Source: Gemmatimonadota bacterium
GTDB taxonomy: Bacteria > Gemmatimonadota > Gemmatimonadetes > Palauibacterales > Palauibacteraceae
Direction of reading: 5' to 3'
NCBI GenBank assembly: GCA_029861425.1
Contig: JAOTZH010000008.1
Span: 2,501-42,493, forward strand
Length of the DNA stretch: 39,993 nt
Part shown: piece after piece, positions 6,232 through 39,906 of the stretch
Layout: each line of letters begins with the position of its first letter
How positions within the stretch are numbered: the stretch's first letter is position 1
Notes under the pieces: model-generated
The model's database searches: none
The model's input: only the letters and a program-made list of their open reading frames with translations
What the model was told of the DNA's origin: nothing
Position numbers and translations under genes: made by a program

Positions 6232-6265
6232 TCGGGGCCGGCCGGGGGAGACCTATCCGGACCCC

Positions 6266-8829: not shown

Positions 8830-8867
8830 GCGGCGCCGGCCGGGATCCGCGATGACGGGGGACTGAC

Positions 8868-22249: not shown

Positions 22250-23172
22250 AGCTTGTCCAGGCTCAAGGTCAGCAGAAGTAGCGGAAGATACAGCACGGAG
22301 TACTTGAAGACCCGGCGCGCGCCGGTGGCATCGGGCGTTCGCACGAAACCCACGGCTTTCCAGAGAAAGATCAGGCCCAGCGAGAGGGTCACCCCGAAGT
22401 AGATCGGGCCGGTGATCCCGATGACCGTCGGGAGCAGGCTGACCGGTAAGAGAGCCAGCGTATAGATGAGCGTCTGATGTCGGGTCTGGAAGCCGTCCTG
22501 ATCCCCGACCGACAGCGTGCGGATCCCCGCCGACTCGTAGTCGTCGCGGAGGATCCACGCCAGCGTCAGGAAGTGCGGCAGCTGCCAGACGAAGAGAATC
22601 GCGAAGAGGGCCCAACCCCCTGCCCCGAGCGAGCCCGTCGCGGCCGTCCAGCCGCCCAGTGCTGGAAGGGCCCCCGGGATCGCGCCCACGACGGTCGACA
22701 GGGAGTGCACGCGTTTCAGCGGCGTGTACATGAAGTCGTAGCTGACGAACGTTGCCAGGGCGAGAGCTCCGGTCAGGGCATTCGTCATCACGGCCAGGTA
22801 GGCGATACCCGCCGCTGCCAGCGTCCCCGAGAAGACGGCTGCCGGCAGGAGTCCTACTCGCCCGGCCGGGAGCGGCCGGTTCTTCGTCCGCTGCATCAGG
22901 GCGTCCACGTCGCGCTCGAGGACCTGGTTCATGGCCGAGGTTCCGGCGGCGACCATGGCCACGCCGATCATCGCGTGCGCGAATCCGACGAAGTCGAATG
23001 TCCCCGCGCTTCCGAGGTAGAACCCCGCAGCCGCGGTCACCACCACGAGGGCAGTGATCCGCGGCTTCGTGAGCTCGAGGTAGTCGCCGGCCGAGGCGCG
23101 ACTTCGGGCCGGAGATCCCGCCCTTCTCCGCGCAGGGCCCCGGGGGGCCTCGACCAAACTCTCCGACTTCAC
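22246..23172 (-). CDS. ctaB: Protoheme IX farnesyltransferase
   Basis: A 308-residue UbiA-family membrane prenyltransferase that adds a farnesyl chain to heme b to form heme O, needed for heme-copper oxidases. The substrate motif NQVLERDVDALMQRTKNRPL (Asp-rich N-x-x-x-D-x-x-x-D region and R-T-x-x-R-P) is present, and seven or more helices follow. The second Asp-rich loop is less clear by eye. A ~30-residue Arg/Pro-rich N-terminal tail precedes DYLELTKPRI. The GTG start at 23172 has CGGAG six bases upstream. It follows ctaF by 13 bases. No ctaA (heme A synthase) is in the window. Confidence 0.93.
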   Translation of the reverse strand: MKSESLVEAPRGPARRRAGSPARSRASAGDYLELTKPRITALVVVTAAAGFYLGSAGTFDFVGFAHAMIGVAMVAAGTSAMNQVLERDVDALMQRTKNRPLPAGRVGLLPAAVFSGTLAAAGIAYLAVMTNALTGALALATFVSYDFMYTPLKRVHSLSTVVGAIPGALPALGGWTAATGSLGAGGWALFAILFVWQLPHFLTLAWILRDDYESAGIRTLSVGDQDGFQTRHQTLIYTLALLPVSLLPTVIGITGPIYFGVTLSLGLIFLWKAVGFVRTPDATGARRVFKYSVLYLPLLLLTLSLDKL

Positions 23173-23185
23173 AGGAAGCTCCGGC

Positions 23186-23464
23186 TCAGACGTATTCCAT
23201 CATGATGACGATGATCATGATGGCGACCGCCGGGAGCGGTGCCAACGCCACGAGCCGCAGCCTTGTCGGCTCCCACTTCATGTGCATGTAGTACATCGCC
23301 ACCAGCAGCGCCTTCCAGAACGCCATGATCAGCAGGGACCACACGATGATCGCTTTGGGGATCGGGAGGAACGCGACCCCGACCTCGGCGACGGTGAGGA
23401 TGAACAGATACAGCCAGATGAGCATGTAGTTCGGAGCTTTGTGCTCCCCGGCATGGTCGCTCAT
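23186..23464 (-). CDS. ctaF: Cytochrome c oxidase subunit IV
   Basis: A 92-residue protein with three membrane helices and the prokaryotic subunit-IV pattern, including PNYMLIWLYLFILTVAEVG, FWKALLVAMYYMHMKWE and the very hydrophobic C-terminus. It stabilises the oxidase and has no catalytic residues. It lies between ctaE and ctaB in the usual order. Confidence 0.9.
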   Translation of the reverse strand: MSDHAGEHKAPNYMLIWLYLFILTVAEVGVAFLPIPKAIIVWSLLIMAFWKALLVAMYYMHMKWEPTRLRLVALAPLPAVAIMIIVIMMEYV

Positions 23465-23537
23465 GAAATCGCTCCGTTCATCGGTTCCTCTCGTACCATT
23501 GTGCTCGCCGCCGAGCTCTCTTCGCGAGGTCTCCGCA

Positions 23538-24158
<621 letters not shown>

Positions 24159-25982: not shown

Positions 25983-26025
25983 TTCACCTCGCCTCGTGGT
26001 TCGCTGAGCGCATTCGAACGACCCG

Positions 26026-26691
26026 TCAGTTCCCTGCCGCCTGTCCCGCCGACCAGGCGTCGAAATCAGCCCGGTCGTGAATCACGACCTGCGCGTCCAT
26101 CGAATAGTGACCGAGGCCGCACAGCTCGGCGCACGCGATCTGGTACTCGCCCGTCCCGGTGGCCTCGAACCAGATCGGGATGGTCATGCCGGGCACCGCG
26201 TCCTGCTTGACCCGCAGCTCGGGCACGAAGAACGAGTGGATGACGTCTTCCGACTCGAGACGCACGATCACCGGCTCGTTCGCCGGGAAGTGGAACTGGT
26301 TTCGCACGACGAAGTCGTCCGCCGTGTCGATCCGTCCGTCAGATCCGGGGTAGGTGATGTTCCACTCGAACTGTTTGGCGACCACGTTGAACGTCAGTGC
26401 GTCCTGTGGGAGCGCGCTCGCACCCCGGATGTCGGCCCAGACGCCCCCGGAGTAGATCCCCAGGACCGCGAGGATCACCGCGGGCACTGCGGTCCAGATG
26501 ATCTCGGCCTTCTTGGACCCATGCGTGTAGTGCGCCTTCTGACCGTCGCGGCGGCGGTATTTGATCGAGAACCAGATGATCCCCGCTTCCACGAGGATGA
26601 ACGCGACCCCCGTGAGAACAGCGATGATCCAGAACAACCGGTCGATCACCACGCCCTGGGTGGAGAGATTGAGAGGTAACGACCAATCCAC
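26026..26691 (-). CDS. ctaC: Cytochrome c oxidase subunit II
   Basis: A 221-residue subunit II with two N-terminal membrane helices (about 17-42 and 64-84) and a periplasmic CuA cupredoxin domain. CuA ligands are H152 (VIHSFF), C187 and C191 with E189 (CAELC), H195 and M198 (GHYSM). No cytochrome c domain is fused at the C-terminus, so a separate electron donor is needed; the cytochromes c and cupredoxin-like lipoprotein encoded just upstream are candidates. The GTG start at 26691 follows AGGAG at eight bases. Confidence 0.95.
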   Translation of the reverse strand: MDWSLPLNLSTQGVVIDRLFWIIAVLTGVAFILVEAGIIWFSIKYRRRDGQKAHYTHGSKKAEIIWTAVPAVILAVLGIYSGGVWADIRGASALPQDALTFNVVAKQFEWNITYPGSDGRIDTADDFVVRNQFHFPANEPVIVRLESEDVIHSFFVPELRVKQDAVPGMTIPIWFEATGTGEYQIACAELCGLGHYSMDAQVVIHDRADFDAWSAGQAAGN

Positions 26692-26767: not shown

Positions 26768-27634
26768 TTAGTCCTGGGCTCCGCGGTGCACCTCGATGCC
26801 GTGCTCTCCGTGCCGGATGACCAGCGGCTCGCCGAGCGGAACGTGCGCACCCGCCATGTCCGAGCTGTAGTCGAAGCTGAGCGTAGCGGTGCCGCCTGCG
26901 GTGACGGTCACGCTACCCGACATAGCGCCGTAGGCCTCGTGCCAGGCCTCCGCGGTGTACGTGCCAGCCGGCACGTTGGGGATGGTGAAGCTCCCGTCGG
27001 GACCGGAGACACCGAAGTACGGGTGGTCGACGACTCCGATGTACGCCTGCATCCAGCCATGCACGTCACAGCGCACGGGGACCATCACCTCAGCAAGAGG
27101 GAAGCTCTGATTGCTGGTGATGCCGGCGCGGGGCTGGCTGATGTTGAAGCCGCGGTTCTCGGTCGGGCTCGCGTTGATGTTATGGAGCAGATCGTCCGAG
27201 TTGGTGATCTCGATGTTCTGGCCGACCTGCACGCCGAGGACGTGCGGCATATACCGGCAGTTCTCCTGGTCGAGCTGGACCGAGCCGCTCGGGGCCGGGC
27301 CGCCGGACACGCCAGTGAGATGGACGAACACGTTCGCGAGCCTGCCGTTGGCAGCTATCACGTTGTTCGACATCGGGCCGTCCGGGCCGTAGCCGGCCGC
27401 GCAGTCCGCTTCGGCCGACATGTCGATCGCCGTGGGGGCAGGCGAGTCGCCCGCAAAGTTGATGGTGCCCGAGATCGTGCCGACCGTGGCCGGATCGACC
27501 TGAGCGGCCGCAGGGGCTTCCCCTCCGCCCGCGTCGCCGCCGGGGTCGCCCCCGCCACTGTCACCGCCCCCGCATGCGGCCATCGCACCGGCTGCAACCA
27601 ACACGGAGACCTTCTTCAAAAACTCGCTACGCAT
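26768..27634 (-). CDS. Cupredoxin-like lipoprotein with carboxypeptidase-regulatory-like domain
   Basis: A 288-residue lipoprotein: hydrophobic signal ending AAGAMAAC with the acylated cysteine C21, then a Gly/Asp-rich linker. Residues ~50-200 form a plastocyanin-like domain; H151 (DLLHNIN), C189, H192 and M195 (RCDVHGWM) match the His/Cys-His-Met set of a type 1 copper site. Residues ~200-245 (GPDGSFTIPNVPAGTYTAEA) are a carboxypeptidase-regulatory-like beta sandwich. It would sit on the outer face of a membrane and could carry electrons between the cytochromes c and the CuA of CtaC; this is inference from motif and place. It lies between the bd-like and heme-copper oxidase gene sets. Confidence 0.82.
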   Translation of the reverse strand: MRSEFLKKVSVLVAAGAMAACGGGDSGGGDPGGDAGGGEAPAAAQVDPATVGTISGTINFAGDSPAPTAIDMSAEADCAAGYGPDGPMSNNVIAANGRLANVFVHLTGVSGGPAPSGSVQLDQENCRYMPHVLGVQVGQNIEITNSDDLLHNINASPTENRGFNISQPRAGITSNQSFPLAEVMVPVRCDVHGWMQAYIGVVDHPYFGVSGPDGSFTIPNVPAGTYTAEAWHEAYGAMSGSVTVTAGGTATLSFDYSSDMAGAHVPLGEPLVIRHGEHGIEVHRGAQD

Positions 27635-27697: not shown

Positions 27698-29245
27698 TCA
27701 GGCTCGCGCCCGACCCTGAGCACGGCGAACGAGAACCAGCCCGAACGCTCCAGTCAAGAGGATCGCGATGAGGGGGGTCACCACGACCGCGTTCGAGGGC
27801 TCTTGCTCCAGAAGCACGTAGTACCACGAGGAGACCCCGGCCCTCTTGTCCGTCTCGCCGCTCGAACCGTCCCACGCGGAGAACGCGACCGGGATCGGCA
27901 CTCCCTCGGAGAAGGTCAGTCCGTCTGCCCCCGCCGCGATCGGCCGCCTGAGGTAGAGCGTCCATCTCCCATCCTGCCACTCGGCGGTTCCCTGCAGCTC
28001 TCCGGGTAGAGGCTCGACCGACCCGTATCCGCGTCCGCGCCCCTCACCGACGCCGTCGTTCGAGCTCCATGTCCAGAGATAGACCGGCTGTCGGGTGGTG
28101 CCGCCGAGGAAGTACGGACGCTCCGCACCATCCGGGACCTCGAACGGGAACTGCAGCCTGATCGCGTCTGGCCATCTGACGGTGACGGCGCCGGTGCTGT
28201 CGAGCGCTGGGGCCTCGAAGCCGTCGAGATCCATCGTCGCCAGAATCTTCGCTTGCCATTCGTCCCACTCGGAATCGGGGCTTCTCGACGGGTCGTTCCA
28301 CTGCACCCTGAACGCCATCTCCGACCCGTCGTGGACGCCTTCCACCCAGATGCCGTCCACGGTGGGGGCGAAGTTGCGCGGCACCTCGATGACTTGCCCG
28401 GCGAGCGGAAAGAAGAACGCCTCGATGTCCCCCCAGGCCTCGTCGGACCCGTCCTGTGGCAGCCCTTCGGAGGCTCGTTCCACGCGCACCACTTCGCGCA
28501 GGCGAGGCCGCTCGCGGGGTCCCATGCTCGCGACGTAGTGGGCGAGCTGCCAAACCTCGTCAGGTGACACCACGCCCGAGTTCATCGCGTCGATGGCCGC
28601 GGGCATGGGCGTACCGTCTAGACCGGTGAGGACACGTGTGTGGATGTCGTTGACCGAGCTACCCCCGTTCAGTGCCCAGGCCTCGGTCAGATCGGCCGCC
28701 CGGATCGGGAAGCCGCGCCAGTCCTCGAGCGTCGGCGCGGAGGTGCCATTGCCTCGTCCAGCGGCGCCGTGACAGGCCTCGCACTCGAGGGTGAGGTACG
28801 CCTGGGCTCCCGCCGCCAGCGCCTCTGGCCCGCCACCCGGATCAGAACCGAAATCGAGCGGCTCGGGGGCCGGCCCGGCGGCAAAGAACCGGGAGAAGCT
28901 CTTGATGTACTCGATGACGTCGCGCTTCTGCTGATCCGACAGGTTCGGCCAGCCCGGCATGGTCGTGCCCGGGAGACCGACGTTCAGCACGTGCATCAGG
29001 TCGTCGTCGGTCGGCAGCTGACCGCTACCCGTGGTGCGGACCTGGTAGCGTGCCTGGCTGAAGGTGCGGGGGCGCGGAAGCATCGACGCGGCGGCGGACC
29101 CGTCGCCGAGACCCTCGGCGCCGTGGCACTCCGCGCACCAACGGTCATAGAGGACGCGGCCGTTCTCGTTCTCCTGCGCCACCAGCCCGGCAGCGCCGAC
29201 GAGAAGGAACGTGGCGATCGTCTTGAGCAGTGTTCCAGATCTCAT
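27698..29245 (-). CDS. Diheme cytochrome c with ethylbenzene-dehydrogenase-gamma-like domain
   Basis: A 515-residue exported protein. After a signal peptide (about 1-23) come two cytochrome c domains with heme sites C37-A-E-C40-H41 and C155-E-A-C158-H159; M96 (GTTMPGW) and the Met of GTPMPAA are likely sixth ligands. Residues ~270-480 resemble the heme b-binding gamma subunit of ethylbenzene and dimethylsulfide dehydrogenases (SEMAFRVQWND, IRLQFPFEVPDG). A C-terminal helix (NAVVVTPLIAILLTGAFGLV) anchors it. The start is ATG 29245, one base overlapping the previous stop (TGATG); a longer upstream frame is out of keeping with the family. Expected to pass electrons within the cluster's respiratory complex. 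Confidence 0.85.
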   Translation of the reverse strand: MRSGTLLKTIATFLLVGAAGLVAQENENGRVLYDRWCAECHGAEGLGDGSAAASMLPRPRTFSQARYQVRTTGSGQLPTDDDLMHVLNVGLPGTTMPGWPNLSDQQKRDVIEYIKSFSRFFAAGPAPEPLDFGSDPGGGPEALAAGAQAYLTLECEACHGAAGRGNGTSAPTLEDWRGFPIRAADLTEAWALNGGSSVNDIHTRVLTGLDGTPMPAAIDAMNSGVVSPDEVWQLAHYVASMGPRERPRLREVVRVERASEGLPQDGSDEAWGDIEAFFFPLAGQVIEVPRNFAPTVDGIWVEGVHDGSEMAFRVQWNDPSRSPDSEWDEWQAKILATMDLDGFEAPALDSTGAVTVRWPDAIRLQFPFEVPDGAERPYFLGGTTRQPVYLWTWSSNDGVGEGRGRGYGSVEPLPGELQGTAEWQDGRWTLYLRRPIAAGADGLTFSEGVPIPVAFSAWDGSSGETDKRAGVSSWYYVLLEQEPSNAVVVTPLIAILLTGAFGLVLVRRAQGRARA

Positions 29246-30039
29246 CAGTGCGCCTCCCCTTCCGCGCCTTCTTCCTCCCACGTGCGAGGCGTGCTTCCGG
29301 TACGCTCGTATAGGAACAGGATGACGGACCAGGTTTCGTTCTCGTCTAGGATCGTCTCCCAGGCGGGCATCGCCGAGTTCCAGGGAGCGCCCTCGTTGGG
29401 CAAGCCCGGTCCGCCCTTCGCGATACGCCAGAATACATAGCTCTCCGTGAGCTGGACGATCGTGCCGGTATTCGTGAAGTCGGCGGGAACCGGCGTGAGC
29501 ATCGAGGCGAAGTGACCCTGGCCGTCGAGGAGGTCGCCGTGGCACGGGACGCAGTTGCGGGTATAGACGGCGTTCCCGACGGCAAGGTGAGCCTCCATGT
29601 CGCCGGAATGGCGGAGCGGATTCTCGAGTCCGGCAAGCTCCATGGTCGCTCCCCGGAAGGTGATCGAATTCGGCGGCGCCGGGTGGATCGACCGAAGGGT
29701 AGCTGGCGCCCCGAAGCTCGGCTTGACGCCCTGGTACGCGACCCAGCCGACCAGGAGCGGGAGCCCCACCAGAAGGATGCCGCGGAGCGCCCGGCGTCCG
29801 GGATCCACCATGGTCCGCACCATGGGTGCCTTGAACGCGGCCCATCGATCAGACTCCGCGCTCATGTAGAGGAGGACGCCGACCAGCACCGTCAGCATGT
29901 ATTGCGTGACCACCGTGCTCGGCACCGGCGCGCTAGGGACGCCGATCATCGGCAGGAGATATCCGATTCCCCACTTGATGACGACATAGGCGAGCACGAG
30001 AACCAGCACGCCCTGCCAGAACGGGTGCTTCAGATTCAT
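29245..30039 (-). CDS. Membrane-anchored monoheme cytochrome c
   Basis: A 264-residue protein with three N-terminal membrane helices (about 9-30, 43-60, 86-103) and a periplasmic cytochrome c domain with heme site C163-V-P-C166-H167; the Met of NSAMPAWE is the likely sixth ligand. It lies 12 bases after the diheme cytochrome gene and overlaps the next one by a base, so the three cytochromes are made together. The number of membrane helices is unusual for a simple cytochrome c and suggests packing against the CydA-like subunit. Confidence 0.88.
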   Translation of the reverse strand: MNLKHPFWQGVLVLVLAYVVIKWGIGYLLPMIGVPSAPVPSTVVTQYMLTVLVGVLLYMSAESDRWAAFKAPMVRTMVDPGRRALRGILLVGLPLLVGWVAYQGVKPSFGAPATLRSIHPAPPNSITFRGATMELAGLENPLRHSGDMEAHLAVGNAVYTRNCVPCHGDLLDGQGHFASMLTPVPADFTNTGTIVQLTESYVFWRIAKGGPGLPNEGAPWNSAMPAWETILDENETWSVILFLYERTGSTPRTWEEEGAEGEAH

Positions 30040-30051
30040 GACGTCGCCTCC

Positions 30052-30873
30052 CTATTCGCCGCTTCCGTCGCCGGAGCCATCGTCTCCATCGTCGCCGCCT
30101 CCGGGGTCGCCTGTAACGAGGAACTGGATGAGCGCGTCGAGCTCGGCCGGCGACATGATGCCGGCGAGCCCCGGCGCCATCAGCCCGGCGACCGACTCGT
30201 AGCCTTCGGCTATGTCGGCGCCGGGGTCCTCGATCGCCCGCCGGATGTACTCGGGATCCTTGCCCACGGCCTCCTCGAACGGCGGTCCGAGCTCAACTCC
30301 CTCGCCGCTATACATGTGACAGGCGAAACAGCCGGTGTTCCGGGCGACCGCCACCGGGTCGATGCTCGCCGGGTCGACCGGAGCAGCGTCGGCCGGCGCC
30401 GTCTCCGGTGCCGTATCTTCCGCCAGCGCGGACGCGAAGTCGTCGGCGTTCACCGTGACCGTGCCGCCCTGGTCCTGAAGGAACGCGACGAGGGCCCACA
30501 GCTGGGGCTGGACAATTGTCCGGCTCTGATCGAGCATGATCGGTTGGAAGCCCTCGACGACGTACGCCGTCGGGTTCACGAGAGACTCCCAGAGATACGT
30601 CTTGCAGTCTTGCCCCGGTACACGCGTCTCACATACCGACCCGGCGACGCCGACGAGGTCGGGGGCGCGCGTCCCCAGGCCGTGGCAGGCCGTACAGCCG
30701 CCGACGCCCGCATAGAGCTCTTCACCGATCGCGACGAGCTCTTCGGGCGTCGTCTCGGCCGTCAGCACGATCTCCCTGGGGACCGCCGACTGTACCTGCG
30801 GGATGATGTTCGCCACGAGCGTGTACACGGCGAGCGTCCCGATGATCGTGAGAAGAATCTTGAGATTCGTCAT
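30052..30873 (-). CDS. Membrane-anchored diheme cytochrome c
   Basis: A 273-residue protein with one N-terminal membrane anchor (5-25) and two cytochrome c domains with heme sites C60-T-A-C63-H64 and C182-F-A-C185-H186, joined by an Ala/Pro/Asp-rich linker (about 145-175). M113 and the Met of GLMAPGLAG are probable axial ligands. C81 and C90 may form a disulfide. The tail is Gly/Asp-rich. The start ATG 30873 has GGAGG ten bases upstream; six codons further upstream are open but have no ribosome site. It lies 70 bases after the CydA-like gene. Confidence 0.88.
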   Translation of the reverse strand: MTNLKILLTIIGTLAVYTLVANIIPQVQSAVPREIVLTAETTPEELVAIGEELYAGVGGCTACHGLGTRAPDLVGVAGSVCETRVPGQDCKTYLWESLVNPTAYVVEGFQPIMLDQSRTIVQPQLWALVAFLQDQGGTVTVNADDFASALAEDTAPETAPADAAPVDPASIDPVAVARNTGCFACHMYSGEGVELGPPFEEAVGKDPEYIRRAIEDPGADIAEGYESVAGLMAPGLAGIMSPAELDALIQFLVTGDPGGGDDGDDGSGDGSGE

Positions 30874-30943
30874 GCGACCGGTTCCTCCCAATCAGCTCCG
30901 ATAAGGGGCGCCGTGGCCACTCTCGCAACGCGTTGTAGTGCAA

Positions 30944-32701
30944 TCACTTGGCCGTCTCCTCGTACACCGATTTCTCCGCAAGGCCGCCGAGCCAGAAGAT
31001 CATCCCGACAAGGCCGAAGAAGATCGCCACGCAGATGCTGATCATGGTGGCCGCCGGACCGAGTGCCGGCGTGAAGGCCTGCTCGCTGGTGTCGCGGATG
31101 ACCTCGTAGACGTGCCAGTGCTGCCGGATCCCCGACCGGGCGAACCCCATGAGCCCCATGAGCCAGGTGAACGTGACGGCCAGAATCAGGAGCGCGTACT
31201 GGGAGCGCGCAGGCATCTTGCCCCACTGGATCTCGCCCCTCGACTTCGCCCCGCGCAGCATGGCGGAGTCGATCAAGATCACGAAGATGATCGTCGCGAG
31301 GACCGCAAGCACCTGATAGACCGAGAAGCCGATGCGGACGATCGCGGTGACGAAGTACCCGTATATGCCGTAGAAGACGACGATGACCGCCGCGATCGCG
31401 AATGCGGCGCCCTGGAGCATCGTCCCCGTCTTCGCCCAGCTCACCACTGGCTCCTTGTTGGCCCGCCGGTACAGCATGAACGAGAGGAACGTCGTGAGGA
31501 TCATGAGGTTCACGGCCGTGTTCTTGGCGCTCATGACCCCGAGGACCCCGAGGAAGGGATGCTGCTGCCCGCCCATGGCGGCGACCTCGTCGCGGCTCGC
31601 GATCATCGTGTTCGGGGTCGCCCATACGATCACGCCGACCACGAGCACCAATAGCATCCATTTGATGTACGGCTGGAAACGCTCGGCGCCCGGGATGCGG
31701 CCCATGCCGATCCACAGGTAGTAGTTGCCCGCCAGGAAGAGCACGCCGATGAGGAAGGCCTGGATGATCCAAAGCCAGCTCATGAAGCCGCCCATCATCG
31801 TGATCCCCATCTGCTGGCTGAACTCGTAGATCTCCCGGCCCAGCCAGTAGCCGGCGAAGGGGAGCACGATCAGCGCCCCGATCGCGATCAAGTTCCCGGT
31901 GTAGCCCATCCAGTCGTAGTGCGCCCGTTCTTCGTCGCTCTCGGAAGTCAGGAACCGGTAGGCCGCGTAGGCCCCCACGATCGCGCCGCCGAACACCACG
32001 TTCGCGATCAACCTGTGGATGTTGATCGGCATCCACGTCGCATTGTTGATCGCACTCCAGAGCTGAACCGTTTGAGGGGCCGTATCCACCGTCACGTCGG
32101 GGGGCGGGCTCATCATGTACGTGAGCCAGCCGTTCGCGATGAACATCACGATCGTGCCCCAGATGTTCAGCAGGATTCCCAGCCCCCAGTGGAACTTCTT
32201 GGCTGCCCCTTTCTTCCAGGCGTCCCACCCGTAGTAGTACAGGTAGAGCGTGAACGACTCGAAGAAGAACAGCGCCGCGTAGAGCCACATCGAGGGTGCG
32301 AAGATCGCCGTCAGGTAGACCCAGAAGCGGGGGTAAAGCGTCGAGATGAAGAAGACGAGGATCGCGCCCCAGATCGCCGTGGCGCTGTACGCCACGAGGA
32401 GGAGCCGCGTGAACTCCTTGGCGAGCTTGTCGTAGCGCTCGTTGTCCGTAAAGATCCCGATCGCCTCGATCACGACGGCGAACATCGGTACGCCGAGGAC
32501 GAACGCCGCGAAGAGTAGGTGCAGCTGGGCCGCGATCCAGACGGCGCCACGGCGGTCCAGGCCGAAGATCCCGAACTCGCCGTAGTCGGGCCCGGCCGCC
32601 TGGGCGAGCAGCGGCATGGCGACCAGCAGCGCGAGCCCGGCACCCGTGGCGGCGCGCATCAGCCACCGCCGTCTTCCGTCACGACTCTTCGTCAGGTCCA
32701 C
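30944..32701 (-). CDS. CydA-like subunit of a cytochrome bd superfamily oxidase, no CydB partner
   Basis: A 585-residue membrane protein with about 13 helices. The first half aligns with CydA: H61 (QLHLLF) matches the heme ligand H19 of E. coli CydA, E149 (FFFESF) matches E107, IANGW at 188-192 matches VANGW, and H229 (INIHRL) matches H186. E99 of CydA is not kept (Y141 at that place). The hydrophilic quinol-binding Q loop with its K and E is absent; instead the protein goes straight on to further helices. Known work on the superfamily describes families without the quinol site that must use another donor. No cydB, X or B-like gene is near; three cytochrome c genes follow. The start GTG 32701 follows AGGGAAG; a longer upstream frame would add 50 unlikely residues. 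Confidence 0.85.
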   Translation of the reverse strand: MDLTKSRDGRRRWLMRAATGAGLALLVAMPLLAQAAGPDYGEFGIFGLDRRGAVWIAAQLHLLFAAFVLGVPMFAVVIEAIGIFTDNERYDKLAKEFTRLLLVAYSATAIWGAILVFFISTLYPRFWVYLTAIFAPSMWLYAALFFFESFTLYLYYYGWDAWKKGAAKKFHWGLGILLNIWGTIVMFIANGWLTYMMSPPPDVTVDTAPQTVQLWSAINNATWMPINIHRLIANVVFGGAIVGAYAAYRFLTSESDEERAHYDWMGYTGNLIAIGALIVLPFAGYWLGREIYEFSQQMGITMMGGFMSWLWIIQAFLIGVLFLAGNYYLWIGMGRIPGAERFQPYIKWMLLVLVVGVIVWATPNTMIASRDEVAAMGGQQHPFLGVLGVMSAKNTAVNLMILTTFLSFMLYRRANKEPVVSWAKTGTMLQGAAFAIAAVIVVFYGIYGYFVTAIVRIGFSVYQVLAVLATIIFVILIDSAMLRGAKSRGEIQWGKMPARSQYALLILAVTFTWLMGLMGFARSGIRQHWHVYEVIRDTSEQAFTPALGPAATMISICVAIFFGLVGMIFWLGGLAEKSVYEETAK

Positions 32702-32753: not shown

Positions 32754-34151
32754 TCAGTGCTTTCGACGCGCCTGGTCGTTGCCCGGTCGTCCGCCCGCGA
32801 AGAACGGCAACCGTTTGGAAAAATCGACGGGCATGGACCGTCGTACCTCACCCATCAATTCCAGCGTCACCCGGTCCCGGCCATGCTCGCGGGCGAACTT
32901 CTCGACCCGGCTCGCCACCACGCCACGCACAAAGGAAGGAATGCTCTCGAGACGGGCCGTCGCCTCGGGAGACCAGGTCATGTCCAGGCTGGCCGCGTCC
33001 CCGTAGGTGACGGACACCGCGGGCCGCACCGGCTCGTTCCGTCCCTCCGGCTCATACGCGCACGATGTATCCGGTCCGAGGAAGTCCCCGTCGGCGGCGT
33101 ACGCCCGGGCTCGGCAGCCACCGCAGATCTCGCGGTACTCGCATCGACCGCACTTGCCGCCCAGCTCCCCTTCCCGCAGCAGTCGAAAGACCGTGGCTTC
33201 GCTCCAGATCTCGCCGAATGAGCGCTCCGAGAGGTCGCCGGCCACTTCGGGCATATACGGGCAGGGCGTGACCTTTCCCTCCGGAGTGATGCGACAGTAT
33301 TGAACGCCACAGGGGCACCGCGTGCGATAGTGGAGCAGCGGGGACTCGGCGTCGTTCTCGTACACATGCCGCATCAGTTGGGGCTGACACTTGGAGCGGA
33401 TCATCAGCCGTCCCCGGTACTCGCGCTGCAGCTCCGTCAGGCGTTGGAGAACGATGTCGTTGTCCTCCGGAGAGAGGCCGCGCATGCCCTCCCCACGGCC
33501 CGTCTCGACCAGGAAATACACGTTGAGGCAGACGGCTCCCTTCTCCGCCGACCATGCCACGATCTCGTCGAGCTCGTGCCGGTTGCCCTTCGTCACCGAG
33601 AACTGGATGAGGAAGTCCAGGCCACGTTCCCCGAGACGGTCGACCGCCTCCAGCGTCTCCGCGAGCGCGCCGTCGCCATGTCGGAATCGGTCGTGGTAGG
33701 TCGGATCGAGGGAGTCGACACTCAGCGCGACCCCCTTTACGCCCGCGTCCACGAGCGAATCGATCCGCTCCGCGGTCAGCCCGGTCCCGTTGGTGCCCAC
33801 CACAACCGTTGCGCCACCCTCCGAGGCGTGGCGCGCGATATCCTCGAGATCCACGCGGACGAGCGGTTCCCCACCACTCAGAATCAGAAGGGGAGACGGG
33901 TTCACCTCGAGAATCTGGTCGATGATCCCTCTGCAGGAATCTGTGTCGAGCTCCGCCTCGGCAGATTCCCACGAGCCGGCCGAGATGTAGCAGTGTGCGC
34001 AAGCCAGATTGCAGCGGCGGGTGAGATTCCAGGCGATGACATGCGGGATGAAGGTCGACGGAGAATCTGCGACCCGGGGGCCCTCCGCGGCGGAGTCCGC
34101 CCACAGCGGAGCCATACCGGAGGGCGGCGTCACACCTGGGGATGCCTTCAC
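32754..34151 (-). CDS. Radical SAM/SPASM protein (NirJ/AhbD-like) with C-terminal PCP_red domain
   Basis: A 465-residue protein. The radical SAM [4Fe-4S] motif is C47-x3-C51-x2-C54 in TRRCNLACAHCYI, followed by LSGGEPL. A SPASM region with further cysteines spans CRITPEGKVTPCPYMP and KCGRCEYREICGGCRARAY. NirJ and AhbD, the closest familiar relatives by motif, modify heme side chains in heme d1 and alternative heme synthesis. Residues 391-440 (TWSPEATARLESIPSFVRG, then KFAREHG) match the PCP_red domain of protochlorophyllide reductase subunit B. The start GTG 34151 has CGGAG five bases upstream; ATG 34115 is an alternative. It lies 52 bases before the CydA-like gene, so a role in making or tailoring its heme is plausible but unproven. 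Confidence 0.82.
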   Translation of the reverse strand: MKASPGVTPPSGMAPLWADSAAEGPRVADSPSTFIPHVIAWNLTRRCNLACAHCYISAGSWESAEAELDTDSCRGIIDQILEVNPSPLLILSGGEPLVRVDLEDIARHASEGGATVVVGTNGTGLTAERIDSLVDAGVKGVALSVDSLDPTYHDRFRHGDGALAETLEAVDRLGERGLDFLIQFSVTKGNRHELDEIVAWSAEKGAVCLNVYFLVETGRGEGMRGLSPEDNDIVLQRLTELQREYRGRLMIRSKCQPQLMRHVYENDAESPLLHYRTRCPCGVQYCRITPEGKVTPCPYMPEVAGDLSERSFGEIWSEATVFRLLREGELGGKCGRCEYREICGGCRARAYAADGDFLGPDTSCAYEPEGRNEPVRPAVSVTYGDAASLDMTWSPEATARLESIPSFVRGVVASRVEKFAREHGRDRVTLELMGEVRRSMPVDFSKRLPFFAGGRPGNDQARRKH

Positions 34152-34191
34152 CGACGCTCCGGCTTCACGGCCCGGTGGGGGGAACCGTCGG

Positions 34192-36405
34192 TCATTCGGC
34201 GTCGTCGGCAGAAGGCGGTGGCTCCACGTCGTCGCGGCTGGCAAACTGCTCGATCGCGGCGCGGGCCTCGTCGGGTGTCGCCATCTTGAAGTCCACCGGG
34301 CAGTCGCTGGCCGCCTGTTCGATGTCGCGGATCGGACACCGGGTGACGCCTGACGCCTTGGCCTCCTCGATGAACTTCCGCATCTCCTCGCTGACGCCAT
34401 CTACGCCGGCGGCTTCGGCCTTGGCCTGCTTGGCCTTCATCTCGTTGAACATGACGAGCATCGTGTCGAGGTCGAACTCATCGGCCTCGATCATGGCGTC
34501 CTTGTTCTCGTCCATTACGGTCGACGTGACCCGCCACAGGCCCTGCGTCTTCGCGAACCTCTCGACCGTGTTCCGGGCGAGCGGACGGGCGATGAGCGGG
34601 ACGCGTCTCAGGCGATCGAACGCCTCATGCGTCCAGACCACGGGATCGCTCACGGTCCGGTCCCGGGGCAGCTCGTTGTCCGTGACAGGGCATCTCGCCA
34701 TCACGGGCGGCGGCGCGTCGAAGGCATCGGCATCCGCGGTGTCGACGACCGTTCGGCGCATGGCCTCTTCGGCTTTCACTTCGGCGAGCGCGAGCTCCTC
34801 GGCATCCCCAATCCCCATGACGAGCTGCATATGGGTCGGGAGGAGCTTCTTGATCGCCTCATCGAGGCGCTCGTTCGTGACGACGGGCAGCTCGTCACGA
34901 CTCGCGACGTCGAGACCGGCTCCGTTGCTTCCGTTGGCCCTCACCGCCGCGACGTCCTGAATAGACGGTGCCGTTCCGCTCTCGAGGGCGGCCGCGGCCA
35001 TCGCCGCGGTGGCGTTGCCGTCGCCGTCGCCGTTCGTCGACTGGTATTTCCTCTCATCCTTCGGATTGGGGACGAAAGCGGCGGCATACCGGCTTCCGGG
35101 CCCATAGTGCTCCAGGACGAACTCCTCTACCGCCTTTCGGGCGATTCCCAGCGCGAACGGGGGAACGCGCAGGATGCGGACTTCGGCTTCGGGCGCCCAC
35201 TCCAGTCCCGCCTCGCCGTCTTCCTCGATCCACGGGATCTCCTCCGGGCGTACATCGGTCGTCCCGATCAGCAAGACGTTGGTGTCGGTCAGTCGGACGA
35301 GATTGTCCGCCTGCGACCCCATATCCGTCCCCTCGATGCGGTGCGATCCGTGTCGCGCGATCACCATGAGCGAGGGCTCGATCTCCTCGGCCCACTTCAG
35401 CATCGCGTCGAACGGCTTCCCGATCAGGACCTGGGTTTCGATCTCCACATCGGGGTATTCGCTCGCCATGACTTCGGCGCGCCTGAGATTGGCTTTGCAC
35501 AGCCGGAGAAGGCCCTTGTCGATGATGTTGTTGTGGAGCTCCTCCTGCTCCTCGAACTTGAACACCTTCGACGCCTGGACGGAGAGGACGTCCTTGATGT
35601 TGTGGAACACGACGTGGTGGTACTGCACGTCGAACGCGCTCGCGATGTAGAGCCTGGCGCCGAACTGCTGCGCCATCTCGAGCGCGAGCCGGAGCCCCTT
35701 GTAGCTGTAAGCCGACCCGTCGATCCCCACGAGCCATTTGCCACCGGCAAGTGGAACATCGTCTCGGACGATGAGCACGTCCTTCTGGATCCCCCGCAGC
35801 GCTCGCGCCACGACGCCGCCGAGCTGACTCTTCTCCTGTCGGCCCAGTCCATGGGCGCCGATCGCGATCAGGTCGTACTCGCGCTCGGAAGTCCCCGCCA
35901 GCTTGTCTTCGAGCTCCTCCTCCTCGGCGACGAGCCGTCCGTTCTCGCCGAGCTTGACATCGCTGCGCTGCGTGTCGCTGCCGTCGTAGTTGTGCGCGAT
36001 GTTGGGATCGAAGCCGATGAGGCTTGGCAGACGCCCCGCCCCGCTGTTCGACTCGTTGATGATCTCTTCGTAGTTGATCCCCTCGAGGAGCTGTCGAGTG
36101 ACCGTGACGCCGGCCTCGGCGCACCTTTTGTGCAGGAGATCGAGGAAACTGTCGGAGATGAGCTGGAGGCCCTTCTCGATCAACTTGTCGTGGATCTTTC
36201 GCTGGCGACGGATCTCTTCCGGCTCCTGGAACTGGGCCGGGAGCCCGATCTCGAGCTGGCGGAATCGAATGTCGTGGAGCCGGGCGGCGTACACGTGCGA
36301 CCCCGTGATGCGGCCGTCGAGGGGCTTGCAGATCTCGATCGCTCGGTTGACCGCCCAGTCGGATTCGAGCGAGTTGTCGACAGGGACGAATACCTCTCGG
36401 TACAT
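34192..36405 (-). CDS. Double universal stress protein with two PCP_red-like segments and Cys-bearing tail
   Basis: A 737-residue soluble protein. Residues 1-215 and 222-382 are two Usp domains. The first has the ATP-binding pattern GAHGLGR, LGGVVARALRG; the second begins WLVGIDGSAYSY and ends VLLIG. After them come residues 402-435 (EWAPEAEVRILRVPPFALG) and 590-638 (VWTHEAFDRLRRVPLIARPL, AKTQGLWRVTSTVM), both resembling the PCP_red domain. The linker 455-500 is low complexity. Cysteines at C572-P, C690-P and C702-P could bind a metal. ATG 36405 has GGGAG four bases upstream. I know no characterised protein with this architecture. It lies 40 bases before the radical SAM gene. Confidence 0.78.
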   Translation of the reverse strand: MYREVFVPVDNSLESDWAVNRAIEICKPLDGRITGSHVYAARLHDIRFRQLEIGLPAQFQEPEEIRRQRKIHDKLIEKGLQLISDSFLDLLHKRCAEAGVTVTRQLLEGINYEEIINESNSGAGRLPSLIGFDPNIAHNYDGSDTQRSDVKLGENGRLVAEEEELEDKLAGTSEREYDLIAIGAHGLGRQEKSQLGGVVARALRGIQKDVLIVRDDVPLAGGKWLVGIDGSAYSYKGLRLALEMAQQFGARLYIASAFDVQYHHVVFHNIKDVLSVQASKVFKFEEQEELHNNIIDKGLLRLCKANLRRAEVMASEYPDVEIETQVLIGKPFDAMLKWAEEIEPSLMVIARHGSHRIEGTDMGSQADNLVRLTDTNVLLIGTTDVRPEEIPWIEEDGEAGLEWAPEAEVRILRVPPFALGIARKAVEEFVLEHYGPGSRYAAAFVPNPKDERKYQSTNGDGDGNATAAMAAAALESGTAPSIQDVAAVRANGSNGAGLDVASRDELPVVTNERLDEAIKKLLPTHMQLVMGIGDAEELALAEVKAEEAMRRTVVDTADADAFDAPPPVMARCPVTDNELPRDRTVSDPVVWTHEAFDRLRRVPLIARPLARNTVERFAKTQGLWRVTSTVMDENKDAMIEADEFDLDTMLVMFNEMKAKQAKAEAAGVDGVSEEMRKFIEEAKASGVTRCPIRDIEQAASDCPVDFKMATPDEARAAIEQFASRDDVEPPPSADDAE

Positions 36406-36616
36406 GGCACTCCCGTTCGCGTGTTGACCGGCATGCACCGTACCGGCGCACCGTCCCCCACCGCGGGAGTCGTCCACGCCACCTCGGAGCTGCCTGGGGT
36501 CCGTACCGCGACCCACAAATCCCTTGGATCTATGAAACCGATACGGGTCCGAAACGACCCGCCGGGTCCCTCATCAGCCACGTGTTCCGGAACCGAGCGC
36601 CGTGTAGCGCGACAGG

Positions 36617-36645
36617 AAGTTGCTCCGGCCCCGATGGATTGTCAA
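36617..36645 (-). promoter_or_regulatory. Weak promoter candidate upstream of the Usp/PCP_red gene
   Basis: A perfect -35 hexamer TTGACA (36645-36640, minus strand) lies in the 247-bp gap between the ABC permease and the Usp gene, the largest gap in the minus-strand run. The bases 17 further on (CAACTT) are a poor -10, so the start of transcription is uncertain. Nothing else is evident in this gap. Confidence 0.2.
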
Positions 36646-36652
36646 AAGTCCC

Positions 36653-37366
36653 TCATCCGGCGTACGGCCACTCGAATCGTCGTGTCCAGAACCGGCTCGT
36701 CACGAGCAGGACCAGGACCGCGATCATGGCCACGACGAGGGCCGTGACCCAGGGATCGCCGTCGATCGTGCCGGAGGTCTGGACGGCGGCCAGACCTTCC
36801 CGGAGAGGTCGATAAGGCATCGCCGAAGCGACGGAGCGAGTCCACCCGTCGACCGGCGCCCGGAAGAAGCCGGAGAAGTGAAGGAGCAGGAGAGACACCG
36901 CGGCGCTCGCGAGCGCCGCTTCCGCCAGCGAGCGTACAACGGCGGCGATGAACGGACCGATCGCGTTCGCGCTGACCAGGGCGAGCAGCAGCGCGCCAGC
37001 CAGATACGCGAGATCCGCCGCGGAGGTGCCGCCGGCGCTCCAGACCAGCACCGCGACCACGGGGAGGAGCTGGATCAGGTCCAGGATGGCGCCGGCGCAA
37101 ACGGTCTCCGCGAACCACCGGCTTCGTCCGTATCCTGTCAGGAATACCGTGTCCAACCAACCGCCCCTTGCATCCCGGACGGTGGGAATCGACGCGCCGA
37201 ACGTCGCGAAGAACACGATGAAGACGCCGAAGACCGCGGTCCGATGAGGGGCCGCCGCCGCGCTCACGGCTACTGGAGTCAGCAGCAGCGCGGGGATGGC
37301 GACGTTCCAGGCAAAGAGCCTTTTGCGGGCGAAGGCGGTCCGCCAGGCGAGCGACCAGATCCTCAT
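36653..37366 (-). CDS. ABC-2 type transporter permease
   Basis: A 237-residue protein with six predicted helices and the layout of ABC-2 exporters: a basic cytoplasmic start (MRIWSLAWRTAFARKRLF), paired helices, and near the end the amphipathic segment GFFRAPVDGWTRSVASAMPY before the last helix. The substrate is unknown. The size also fits CcmB heme-export subunits, but the sequence is closer by eye to ABC-2 proteins. Its ATG overlaps the stop of the ATPase gene (ATGA), so the two form one exporter. Confidence 0.82.
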   Translation of the reverse strand: MRIWSLAWRTAFARKRLFAWNVAIPALLLTPVAVSAAAAPHRTAVFGVFIVFFATFGASIPTVRDARGGWLDTVFLTGYGRSRWFAETVCAGAILDLIQLLPVVAVLVWSAGGTSAADLAYLAGALLLALVSANAIGPFIAAVVRSLAEAALASAAVSLLLLHFSGFFRAPVDGWTRSVASAMPYRPLREGLAAVQTSGTIDGDPWVTALVVAMIAVLVLLVTSRFWTRRFEWPYAG

Positions 37367-38319
37367 CGTTCGCGCCCAGCATCCCAGGAGGGTCGTGACG
37401 CGAGCACCCGACCCGTCACGGCGAAGTAGGCGTCACGGAGGCCGGTCTCGTGTACCGTGACGGAGATCACTCTCGCGCCTCCCCCCACGAGCCACTCCAG
37501 CACTGGCGGGAGTGCGGTCGCCGGATCCGCGGTGCGCAACACGAGCCCGTCGGGCTCCGCCTCGACGCGCGAGACACCCTCCGGTGCTTGGGCCAGCGTT
37601 GCTTCCAACGGCTCGCCCCCCGGGGCGAACGTGACTTCGATACGCCCCTCCCGAGCAAGACGACTCAGAAACGCGTCCGGGGTGTCGACGGCGAGGAGCC
37701 GACCCTCATCCATGAAGCCCACTCGATCGCAGTGCGTCGCCGCGAAGTCCGTGTCGTGCGTCGTCATTATGACGGACATGCCCTTGGAAGCCAGCCCGGC
37801 GAGCGAGCGGGAGAAGCGGTCCCGGGCATCCGGATCCAGGCCTGCCAGTGGCTCGTCGAGGAGCAGGCACGGTGCGCCGCTGGCGAACGCGACGGCCAGC
37901 TGGAGGCGCTGTGCTGTCCCACGGGAATAGCTGCCCACCGGGCGGTCTGCGGCGTCGAGCAGATCGAACTCCTCGAGGACCGTCTCGACGGCCGACCCTG
38001 CGTCCGGTCGCCCTCTCATGCCCAGAAGCGCCGTGGCGAGATCCCTGCCGGACAGCCAGTTCTGGAAAGCTGGCCGGTCGAGCGCGAGCGCGGGCGCCCC
38101 GCGCGAGTACGTCACGGCCGGATCGGGCCGGTGTCCGCCCCGCGCGAGCAACCGCAGAAGCGTCGTCTTCCCACAACCGTTCGGACCGAGAAGCCCCAGC
38201 ACTTCACCCCGAGCGACCTCGAGGTGGATGTCGGTCAGGGCCGTCGTCCCGTCGGGGTAAGCGAACCCCAGGCCACGTACCCGGACGTCAGGCTCCGGGC
38301 TGCCCGCCCCAATCCTCAC
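37363..38319 (-). CDS. ABC transporter ATP-binding subunit
   Basis: A 318-residue ATPase. Walker A is GPNGCGKTT (45-53), the signature is YSRGTAQRLQLA (a form common in ABC-2 exporters), Walker B is CLLLDEPLAGLDP, and the switch histidine lies in MTTHDTDFAATH. The C-terminal ~100 residues form an extra domain often seen in exporter ATPases. GTG start 38319 overlaps the ferredoxin stop (GTGA). Co-translation with ferredoxin and Fe-S genes suggests export linked to cofactor handling, which is inference. Confidence 0.93.
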   Translation of the reverse strand: MRIGAGSPEPDVRVRGLGFAYPDGTTALTDIHLEVARGEVLGLLGPNGCGKTTLLRLLARGGHRPDPAVTYSRGAPALALDRPAFQNWLSGRDLATALLGMRGRPDAGSAVETVLEEFDLLDAADRPVGSYSRGTAQRLQLAVAFASGAPCLLLDEPLAGLDPDARDRFSRSLAGLASKGMSVIMTTHDTDFAATHCDRVGFMDEGRLLAVDTPDAFLSRLAREGRIEVTFAPGGEPLEATLAQAPEGVSRVEAEPDGLVLRTADPATALPPVLEWLVGGGARVISVTVHETGLRDAYFAVTGRVLASRPSWDAGRER

Positions 38320-38561
38320 GGGATGATGGCCACGTCGTCCTCATACACCGTGATCGCGTCGACGGGGCAGGTCGCACAGGCCTCTAGAAGCTCGCCACGA
38401 TCAGCCGACTGCGGGGTGTTGAACACCGCGATCCCTTCGTCATCCAGCTCGAAAGACGCCGGCGACTCGGTCACGCAATCGCCGAAGCCCACACAGAGAT
38501 CTCGGTCGATCTCCACGCGGAGCCCGTTCACGACGATCAGGGATCTCGGATCGTCGCTCAC
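38316..38561 (-). CDS. Small ferredoxin, probably [3Fe-4S]
   Basis: An 81-residue ferredoxin with cysteines C23, C29, C62 and C65. The pattern C-x5-C with F26 in place of the second ligand, and C65-P66 near the end, matches single-cluster [3Fe-4S] ferredoxins. C62 in ACATCP is extra and could form a disulfide or an alternative ligand. VTESPASFELDDEG is typical of the group. It overlaps both neighbours by four bases, so it is made with the zinc-ribbon/PCP_red protein and the ABC ATPase. A role as reductant for the radical SAM or PCP_red proteins is possible. Confidence 0.9.
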   Translation of the reverse strand: MSDDPRSLIVVNGLRVEIDRDLCVGFGDCVTESPASFELDDEGIAVFNTPQSADRGELLEACATCPVDAITVYEDDVAIIP

Positions 38562-39004
38562 ATCCCCTCCAGCCCGAGATCCGTTCGGGCCCGATCCATG
38601 ACCTCCGGCGTGATGTCGGTGATCCCCCGTTCCTTCGCATACTCGGAGTAAATCTTCTTCACCATGCCTCGCACGAACGAGGGAACATTGCCCAGTCGGT
38701 CGATCGCATCCACCGACCAGGTGACCCGCTGCGTCCCATCCGGGTGTGCGGTTTCCTCGAACGCATCATCCCGCCCCGAGGCGACCCCCGACCGGATACC
38801 CTCGAACGGTTCTTCCGGGACGGTTCTGCCACCGACCTTGACGCCGAGAGAGCTGACCAGTTGGGTTTCCATTGGGTTGGTCAGCATCGCGGTCATGCGG
38901 GCACAGGCGGGACATCGAAAGACCGCTGCCAGCGTCCCGTCACCCGGCAGCTGACGCTCCTCGAAGATCATCTGCTCGTCGCAGTCCACGCAAAGAAACT
39001 TCAT
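38558..39004 (-). CDS. Zinc-ribbon protein with C-terminal PCP_red domain
   Basis: A 148-residue protein. The N-terminus has a four-cysteine metal site, C5-V-D-C8 and C31-P-A-C34, typical of a zinc ribbon or rubredoxin-like knuckle. A linker of ~55 residues follows. Residues 94-142 (VTWSVDAIDRLGNVPSFVRG, then YAKERGITDITPEVM) are a clear PCP_red domain, the small C-terminal domain of the light-independent protochlorophyllide reductase subunit BchB/ChlB. No other bch genes are present, so photosynthesis is not implied. It overlaps the Mrp-type ATPase gene and the ferredoxin gene by ATGA. Confidence 0.85.
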   Translation of the reverse strand: MKFLCVDCDEQMIFEERQLPGDGTLAAVFRCPACARMTAMLTNPMETQLVSSLGVKVGGRTVPEEPFEGIRSGVASGRDDAFEETAHPDGTQRVTWSVDAIDRLGNVPSFVRGMVKKIYSEYAKERGITDITPEVMDRARTDLGLEGM

Positions 39005-39906
39005 TCTGTGGAATCCTCCCCCATGGCCAGCCCATCGAGGACACGGCCGGCGAGATCATCGAGCTGGATGGCGGTCGCAGCATCCCCGGAGAGCCAGGAC
39101 GCGAGTTTCCCCGCCTCCGCCGCTCTTCCCAGTCCGATGTCCATCGGAAGTCGTGCCAGCACGGGAAGGTCGAAACGCTCCGCGAGGTCCGTGGCGGCAT
39201 CGCCCTCATGGAGCGCGCCGATCTGACCGCAATCCGCGCAGCGGTAGCCTGACATGTTCTCGACGACGCCCAGCATGTGCAGCCCCCGACGACGCCCGAG
39301 CTCCAGCGAGCGCGATACGGCGTCACGCGAGGCGCCGCTTGGGATCGTGACCGTGACGACCCCCGCCAGATCCGGCACGAGCTCGTGGAGCTCGACCAGG
39401 CGCTGCGTGCCCGGCGGCAGGTCGACGAGCAGCACGTCGAGCTCGCCCCAGGCGACGTCCGAGAGGAACTCTCGTAGCGCCCCGCGCTCGAGGGCTCCGC
39501 GCCACACGAACCCGGCCTCGTCGGGCTCGTGCCAGTCGATGGCCGCGTCCTCATCCACTAGGAGGGCCATGGACATGAGGGCCACTCCGTCCGGGGATCG
39601 CTCGGGCTCCACTCCACCGGGCGTCGACTCGAGCGGTCGCGCGGTCACCCCGAGCATGCGGACCAGACTCGGGCCGTTCACGTCCGCATCGATCACGCCC
39701 ACACGGAGACCGCGGCGCGCGAACGAGGAGGCGAGGGCGGCCGTAAGCAGGCTCTTACCGACGCCTCCCTTCCCGCTCATCACGCCGAGAACTCGCGCGA
39801 CCGAAGACAGCCTCGCGCCGACGCGTTCCTGCTGTCTCCCGACCTGATCCGCGAGGTCCGAGGACTGGCCATCCAGCTCCGAATACGTCCGAATCCTCAG
39901 GCCCAT
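39001..39906 (-). CDS. Mrp/ApbC (NBP35) family Fe-S cluster carrier ATPase
   Basis: A 301-residue P-loop ATPase. The deviant Walker A SGKGGVGKS is at 44-52, switch I VIDADVNGPS near 71-80, and Walker B LLVDLPPGT at 159-167. VENMSGYRCADCG carries the C223-x2-C226 pair that binds a bridging [4Fe-4S] cluster in Mrp proteins. The ~35-residue N-terminus is not the usual DUF59 domain. It would deliver Fe-S clusters to apoproteins; the ferredoxin, radical SAM and PCP_red proteins of this run are natural clients. The start ATG 39906 lies 3 bases after the stop of the next gene upstream. Confidence 0.9.
   Translation of the reverse strand: MGLRIRTYSELDGQSSDLADQVGRQQERVGARLSSVARVLGVMSGKGGVGKSLLTAALASSFARRGLRVGVIDADVNGPSLVRMLGVTARPLESTPGGVEPERSPDGVALMSMALLVDEDAAIDWHEPDEAGFVWRGALERGALREFLSDVAWGELDVLLVDLPPGTQRLVELHELVPDLAGVVTVTIPSGASRDAVSRSLELGRRRGLHMLGVVENMSGYRCADCGQIGALHEGDAATDLAERFDLPVLARLPMDIGLGRAAEAGKLASWLSGDAATAIQLDDLAGRVLDGLAMGEDSTE

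Follow-up and report, generated by a model that had tools for sequence, protein, structure and literature searches.

Why do three neighbouring proteins of a Gemmatimonadota bacterium carry the domain PCP_red (PF08369), which is otherwise found in BchB, both in genomes of this phylum and in solved structures of the dark-operative protochlorophyllide reductase (DPOR)? The stretch of DNA analysed here (the window) comprises 39,993 nucleotides of contig JAOTZH010000008.1 (assembly GCA_029861425.1); window coordinates are contig coordinates minus 2500, and the whole genome, which is 90% complete, was searched as well. Among named organisms, its closest relatives are Candidatus Palauibacter. The three proteins are a zinc-ribbon protein, a protein with a double universal stress protein (Usp) domain and a radical SAM/SPASM protein. 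Their genes belong to an operon-like block that is strongly co-inherited, within one phylum, with an adjoining cytochrome bd-like oxidase. We consider it possible, at slightly less than even chances, that this block is a cofactor-maturation route for the adjoining bd-like/haem-copper respiratory complex, in which PCP_red would serve as a shared adaptor. The genes of the set and their PCP_red segments are, in the order of transcription:

39001..39906, minus strand: P-loop ATPase of the Mrp/ApbC type, an Fe-S carrier, whose gene opens the set (PF10609, 204.9 bits)
38558..39004, minus strand: zinc-ribbon protein of 148 residues with C-terminal PCP_red (PF08369 at residues 96-140, 50.2 bits, E 2.6e-13)
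38585..38719, minus strand: PCP_red segment of the zinc-ribbon protein (52.1 bits in the own-genome search with a hidden Markov model)
38316..38561, minus strand: small ferredoxin (Fer4_13, Pfam match)
34192..36405, minus strand: double-Usp protein of 737 residues with two PCP_red copies (PF00582, 98.4 bits over three stretches; PF08369, 51.3 bits summed over two stretches, the better one at residues 591-635)
35110..35199, minus strand: PCP_red copy 1 of the Usp protein, helices one and two (22.4 bits, profile positions 1-30)
34828..34884, minus strand: helix three of the same copy (VTNERLDEAI..), past a variable linker (motif in 19 of 19 alignment rows, helix in the structure model)
34501..34635, minus strand: PCP_red copy 2 of the Usp protein (44.5 bits, three helices in the structure model)
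32754..34151, minus strand: AhbD/NirJ2-like radical SAM/SPASM protein with C-terminal PCP_red (Pfam Radical_SAM, SPASM and PCP_red; PF08369, 56 bits, E 4e-15, residues 403-446 in the numbering of open reading frame P0002, about 393-436 from GTG 34151); the start is GTG 34151 or ATG 34115
32844..32975, minus strand: PCP_red segment of the radical SAM protein (59.9 bits)

In HMMER searches all three proteins exceeded the curated cut-off of PF08369 (32.5 bits), so that the significant matches proposed in a preliminary description, which had been made from the sequence alone, were indeed found. The four copies counted there correspond to the only four places in the genome with E < 0.01, all within 6 kb (59.9, 52.1, 44.5 and 22.4 bits), and two further matches with E values of 0.76 and 0.88 are at chance level. 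The ranking of the two Usp copies as the weaker matches proved right as well: copy 2 alone lies over the cut-off, copy 1 alone lies under it in the window protein. Consistent with the statement that no photosynthesis gene is present, the PF08369 search of the 90% complete genome yielded no BchB-type match.

The PF00582 score assigns the protein with the split copy to the universal stress protein family. Its PCP_red copy 1 matches only profile positions 1-30 because a variable linker separates the parts of the domain: in the window protein the tryptophan and the VTNERLDEAI helix are separated by 106 residues, the same spacing being 35-41 residues in seven of the 19 aligned proteins (61-82% identity to the window protein) and 64-123 in the others. 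A VTNERLDEAI-type motif is present in every one of these 19 rows. Where copy 1 is contiguous, it exceeds the cut-off on its own (36.3 bits in genome G028, 38.9 in G030 and 43.9 in G238), and the AlphaFold model of the window protein has a helix at residues 511-524, past the linker, in agreement with a split copy. Judged by its sequence, copy 1 is a genuine PCP_red domain divided by a variable linker.

Each segment family shows its own consensus. HHalign joins the zinc-ribbon, radical SAM, Usp copy 2, Usp copy 1 and BchB families pairwise with E values from 2e-25 to 7.5e-8, the weakest pair being Usp copy 1 with BchB; these are one-pair comparisons, in which Usp copy 1 is represented by seven short forms and BchB by 12 of 24 tails. 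A single zinc-ribbon sequence matched the solved structures 2XDQ chain B, 2KRU and 2L09 with E values of 2.7e-6, 3.8e-5 and 1.4e-3. The first two are the C-terminal domain of BchB/ChlB from DPOR, the third is the short protein Asr4154. Furthermore, the predicted helices of PCP_red agree between the two structure models made, those of the radical SAM and the Usp protein; in the former, numbered from the ATG, helices lie at 383-391, 394-410 and 418-427 with a block confidence of 71-94 over residues 381-430. By sequence the set proteins thus share the same 45-residue domain with BchB/ChlB, whereas a recognised nitrogenase-like body is absent from them and the domain sits on a zinc ribbon, whose four cysteines are invariant in 23 rows, on a radical SAM enzyme and on Usp domains. 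None of them can be identified as the DPOR subunit BchB: Pfam finds no nitrogenase-like body, and the highest score reached is 40.5 bits against a cut-off of 509. A weak PF08369 match was also seen at the C-terminus of a 527-residue protein that appears BchZ-like by eye (L169, G120:C48:10072-10224), and PCP_red may therefore occur in BchZ as well as in BchB.

The distribution of the domain was analysed in 249 genomes of the phylum Gemmatimonadota, on which the other genome searches were centred as well. PF08369 was detected at E 1e-5 in 88 of them. Of these we set apart 22 genomes with a BchB-type best hit (at least 66 bits), sorted by the best hit alone with the tails read for those fetched, and G120 with its BchZ-like protein. 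An orthologue of the bd-like oxidase (E < 1e-200) occurs in none of the 22. The remaining 65 genomes have at least two PF08369 matches each, and 62 of them possess the bd-like orthologue, which supports the link to an unusual oxidase already pointed out in the preliminary description. Altogether, 62 genomes have the oxidase and non-Bch PCP_red, three PCP_red only, one the oxidase only and 183 neither. Fisher's test gives 1.6e-52 for this co-occurrence; G120 enters this value as a genome with PCP_red but no oxidase, and neither phylogeny nor linkage is taken into account. The genome with the oxidase only, G250, shows no PCP_red even at E 0.01. In all four discordant genomes (G025, G052, G238, G250) a contig ends inside the cluster, and the absence of the oxidase from G025, G052 and G238 is therefore not proven.

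The neighbourhood is conserved as well. Among 40 relatives including the own genome, 25 have PF08369 matches: exactly four in 21, three in three genomes and eight in one, the latter having two copies of the locus (G008:C75 and G008:C195, possibly two strains in one bin). In twenty loci picked for PCP_red the Mrp, zinc-ribbon, ferredoxin, Usp and bd-like genes are always present, which bears out the proposed link to a ferredoxin and an Fe-S carrier, and the radical SAM gene is present in 19; the position of the ferredoxin gene varies. A scan of genome contigs with the Usp alignment, of which the best 80 of 140 relatives were kept, includes some loci identical to those among the twenty. Here the radical SAM and bd-like genes were found in all 59 loci with at least 4 kb of right flank, and the zinc-ribbon, Mrp and ferredoxin genes in 58 of the 59 with at least 6 kb of left flank. 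Where both flanks are available, 49 of 50 loci contain the zinc-ribbon, radical SAM and bd-like genes, so within the phylum the proteins do co-occur in a conserved neighbourhood, and the lack of co-occurrence that would have refuted the preliminary description was not seen. In the exceptional locus, L116, a second bd-like cluster separates the ABC permease gene from the Usp gene. Since the ABC transporter genes occur in only 27 of the 59 loci with a long left flank, we rejected them as a core part of the system and regard them as optional neighbours.

Most of the 80 loci carry Gemmatimonadota names. Five otherwise named ones were checked and have four matches each; three of these (G260, G263, G266) coincide in contig position with G114, G106 and G049 from the sample of the phylum. 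The public records L083, L090, L100 and L105 carry the set under the label Gammaproteobacteria, a label that looks wrong for L083 (G260) given its agreement in contig position with G114. In G052 a divergent form was detected, with Mrp, zinc-ribbon/PCP_red and radical SAM proteins at about 35-45% identity, suggesting that the family is wider than the one sampled. The same contig encodes a divergent, contig-truncated Usp protein (P0005, L153:8126-9577, G052:C1) in which three stretches resemble PCP_red and a zinc ribbon can be made out by eye; the search of this genome yielded no bd-like orthologue.

The genes surrounding the PCP_red genes, including those of the oxidase, are:

37363..38319, minus strand: ABC transporter ATPase, optional neighbour (Pfam)
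36653..37366, minus strand: ABC-2 permease, optional neighbour of variable presence (Pfam)
30944..32701, minus strand: cytochrome bd-like CydA homologue without GRQPW (PF01654, N-terminal part only)
30052..30876, minus strand: cytochrome c, two matched stretches (Pfam)
29245..30039, minus strand: cytochrome c (Pfam)
27698..29248, minus strand: cytochrome c with EB_dh (ethylbenzene dehydrogenase-type) haem domain (PF00034, PF09459)
26768..27634, minus strand: secreted-looking protein with a carboxypeptidase-regulatory-like match (PF14686; PF13620 at 31.5 bits, slightly below the cut-off of 32.3; cupredoxin-like by eye only)
24219..26691, minus strand: haem-copper oxidase, CoxII at 26026-26691 (PF00116) and CoxI at 24219-25982 (PF00115; CtaD/CoxA model 661 bits, slightly below the cut-off of 670.75)

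Transcription runs from Mrp through the zinc-ribbon, ferredoxin, ABC, double-Usp and radical SAM genes to the CydA homologue, the three cytochromes c, the secreted-looking protein, CoxII and CoxI. From Mrp to the ABC permease, five genes in all, neighbours overlap by 4 bases each; the gap before the Usp gene is 247 bases, and those further on range from -4 to 76 bases, a spacing consistent with co-transcription of the block.

In the bd-like protein PF01654 covers the N-terminal half only, and an HHalign comparison with nine canonical CydA proteins of the phylum is confined to residues 50-296 (E 4.3e-16). Instead of GRQP, which is found in none of 15 bd-like proteins, all 15 contain GIRQHWH. 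We therefore rejected an identification as canonical cytochrome bd, whose GRQPW motif is missing throughout, and the active site may hold something unusual. Retained histidines align with what we take to be two haem ligands of canonical CydA. By gene content and description, the oxidase resembles the module that pairs a bd-like oxidase with an alternative NxrC in Nitrospira, Nitrospina and anammox bacteria and that has been called enigmatic in its function (PMC3578206, PMC6606698). The likeness lies in one cluster that combines a protein CydA-like in its N-terminal half with cytochromes c and with an EB_dh cytochrome, which we take as NxrC-type, whereas in the window the module adjoins CoxI/CoxII and the PCP_red set. 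The bd-like oxidases of nitrite oxidisers are described as lacking the quinol-binding residues of the canonical enzyme, and a putative zinc-finger protein is mentioned in the cluster (PMC3578206). The terms "Radical SAM" and "chlorophyllide" have zero occurrences in the main texts of the bd-like oxidase papers examined.

The radical SAM protein shows the radical SAM and SPASM cysteine motifs in all 20 rows of its alignment. Its nearest NCBIfam models are NirJ2 (278.1 bits, cut-off 500) and AhbD (267.7 bits, cut-off 500), followed by TIGR04053 (244 bits), NirJ (170.6 bits, cut-off 515) and PqqE (120 bits), all scores being below the respective cut-offs. AhbD and NirJ act on tetrapyrroles in haem and haem d1 synthesis, as also indicated by the model names. 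The enzyme of the set shares with AhbD, NirJ and NirJ2 the closest models and the cysteine motifs but differs from them in scores far under the equivalog cut-offs, in its C-terminal PCP_red and in the absence of the siroheme decarboxylase family PF17805 (AhbA/B, NirDLGH) from 25 genomes tested, 18 with and seven without the set. Control genomes matched this family in 4 of 14 cases. For these reasons neither the haem synthase AhbD nor an enzyme NirJ or NirJ2 of haem d1 synthesis is a tenable identification, and haem d1 or siroheme-dependent haem synthesis in general was rejected. Among 32 genomes searched with the protein, matches spanning the PCP_red end were confined to set loci; distant relatives that lack the fusion (29-35% identity) are found whether or not a genome has the set.

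The ChdC family (PF06778) and ferrochelatase were each found in 22 of the 25 genomes and in all 18 with the set; G017, G035 and G037, three of the seven without it, have neither. Protohaem is thus probably made by the coproporphyrin route in genomes with the set. A replacement of ChdC by the radical SAM enzyme in ordinary haem synthesis is not needed, which leaves a modified haem or another substrate. The window itself encodes a ChdC/HemQ-family protein (PF06778; 3740-4609, plus strand, match at about 3899-4555) and a heme o synthase (22246-23172). Twelve of the 18 genomes with the set lack PF00033. Since 24 of the 25 genomes, among them 17 of the 18, have ActD of alternative complex III, the bd-like module is not required to replace complex III either.

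From the content of the set we infer a cofactor-handling pathway, as had been proposed in the preliminary description. Mrp would pass Fe-S clusters, and the ferredoxin electrons, to the radical SAM enzyme, which would most likely modify a tetrapyrrole from the coproporphyrin route (coprohaem or haem b), with the zinc-ribbon and Usp proteins acting as carriers or assembly partners. The Mrp protein resembles known Mrp/ApbC carriers in its PF10609 match and in a C-x-x-C after the ENM motif in 15 of 20 proteins (by eye), but is under the MrpORP and ApbC equivalog cut-offs and is located in the set block. PCP_red would be a three-helix adaptor bringing all three proteins to one common partner, either a tetrapyrrole or the Mrp ATPase, as BchB meets BchL. 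By analogy it may hold or hand over a tetrapyrrole, because its known bearer BchB belongs to a tetrapyrrole-reducing enzyme. It may equally well dock an ATPase, since BchNB works together with the Fe-S ATPase BchL and the Mrp-type gene overlaps the zinc-ribbon gene. In the Usp protein 17 hand-picked His/Asp/Glu positions, distributed over its two halves, are invariant in all 19 rows, as are two Cys-Pro pairs (C572, C690); a third pair (C702) is conserved in 18. Cys-Pro is a haem-regulatory motif, and these positions may form a metal or haem site, a weak hint given that the alignment is conserved throughout. Our search for plasmid-borne relatives of the zinc-ribbon protein and of the Usp protein found none.

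Several observations weigh against a maturation route for the oxidase. Three genomes have PCP_red without a bd-like match (G025, G052, G238); the radical SAM gene of G025 is on a different contig, surrounded by unrelated genes, and G028 possesses the oxidase but lacks a radical SAM gene with PCP_red. Moreover, co-inheritance of neighbouring genes reflects linkage as well as function; the co-occurrence is partly plain linkage and is uncorrected for phylogeny. A second bd-like CydA homologue of the own genome (L146:649-2718, G000:C138; 51% identical in the N-terminal part, 38% beyond) is accompanied by cytochromes c of its own and by a carboxypeptidase-like protein, with no PCP_red gene adjoining; similar clusters exist in G250:C92 and G268:C35. 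The confidence of the Usp model is low to moderate for copy 1 (overall pLDDT, the predicted local distance difference test, 64). Finally, the NirJ2 score of 278 bits is far from the cut-off of 500, the model TIGR04053, named without a function, scores nearly as high, and the best fold matches (Foldseek) are PqqE, SkfB and SuiB, a result that is driven by the enzyme body and carries no information on PCP_red.

These three are enzymes of peptide substrates, and PqqE and SkfB are the best solved relatives by sequence, too, so the radical SAM/SPASM protein might modify a peptide or protein side chain, e.g. in the oxidase, with PCP_red recognising the substrate. We regard this as unlikely: the scores for NirJ2 and AhbD are more than double those for the PqqE, mycofactocin or WgkB models, and the structure ranking is not a fair contest because no solved AhbD or NirJ is among the matches. 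A purely tethering role of PCP_red has a modest chance of being correct. It would bind the three proteins to Mrp for Fe-S delivery without any tetrapyrrole, and the radical SAM enzyme would serve another need of the oxidase. This agrees with Mrp being present in all twenty fetched loci, with its 4-base overlap with the zinc-ribbon gene in the window, with its weak matches to the BchX and BchL models and with the pairing of BchNB and BchL; yet it does not by itself explain two copies in a Usp protein without a Pfam Fe-S domain, and the nearest models of the radical SAM protein are tetrapyrrole enzymes. Possible but doubtful, too, is an as yet undescribed pathway of tetrapyrrole modification, in which the radical SAM enzyme, from the AhbD/NirJ neighbourhood, turns coprohaem or haem b into a special haem for bd-like oxidases, while unrelated proteins, BchB being only one of them, use PCP_red in general to carry or hand over tetrapyrroles.

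Regulation of the respiratory genes by the set in response to stress or redox state, with Usp and zinc ribbon as sensors and no cofactor pathway, appears quite improbable. The double Usp domain and the zinc ribbon would suit such a function, the conserved Cys-Pro pairs and His/Glu residues could sense haem or a metal, and Usp proteins of Nitrospira marina are reported to rise at low oxygen (PMC8115632), though with no known link to the set. The radical SAM cluster motif, intact in 20 of 20 rows, together with Mrp and ferredoxin, points to chemistry instead. Hardly credible is the idea that the domains are remnants of a chlorophyll pathway since lost. BchB-type tails do exist in some genomes of the phylum, but 62 genomes retain the domain alongside the oxidase, G126 and G209 have both a BchB-type match and the set, located on different contigs, the consensus is particular to each segment family, and the gene content of the Usp loci is conserved.

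Further genes of the window include one for a 206-residue protein between CoxI and heme o synthase (23461-24081) that matches neither Pfam nor NCBIfam and has relatives at the same position in several fetched loci, and the histidine-utilisation genes hutH, hutU and hutI on the plus strand (4606-10100).

The individual parts of this system are known already, and so is the general arrangement of genes for cofactor maturation next to a client; the combination of a PCP_red set with a bd-like oxidase was not found in the open-licence literature searched. If the set is indeed a linked maturation set, at least one lineage would need a dedicated cofactor step for its bd-like oxidase, and the gene set offers concrete proteins for the study of these enigmatic enzymes. 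PCP_red would thereby shift from the tail of a chlorophyll enzyme to a shared module, which would give a chance to learn its role in BchB.

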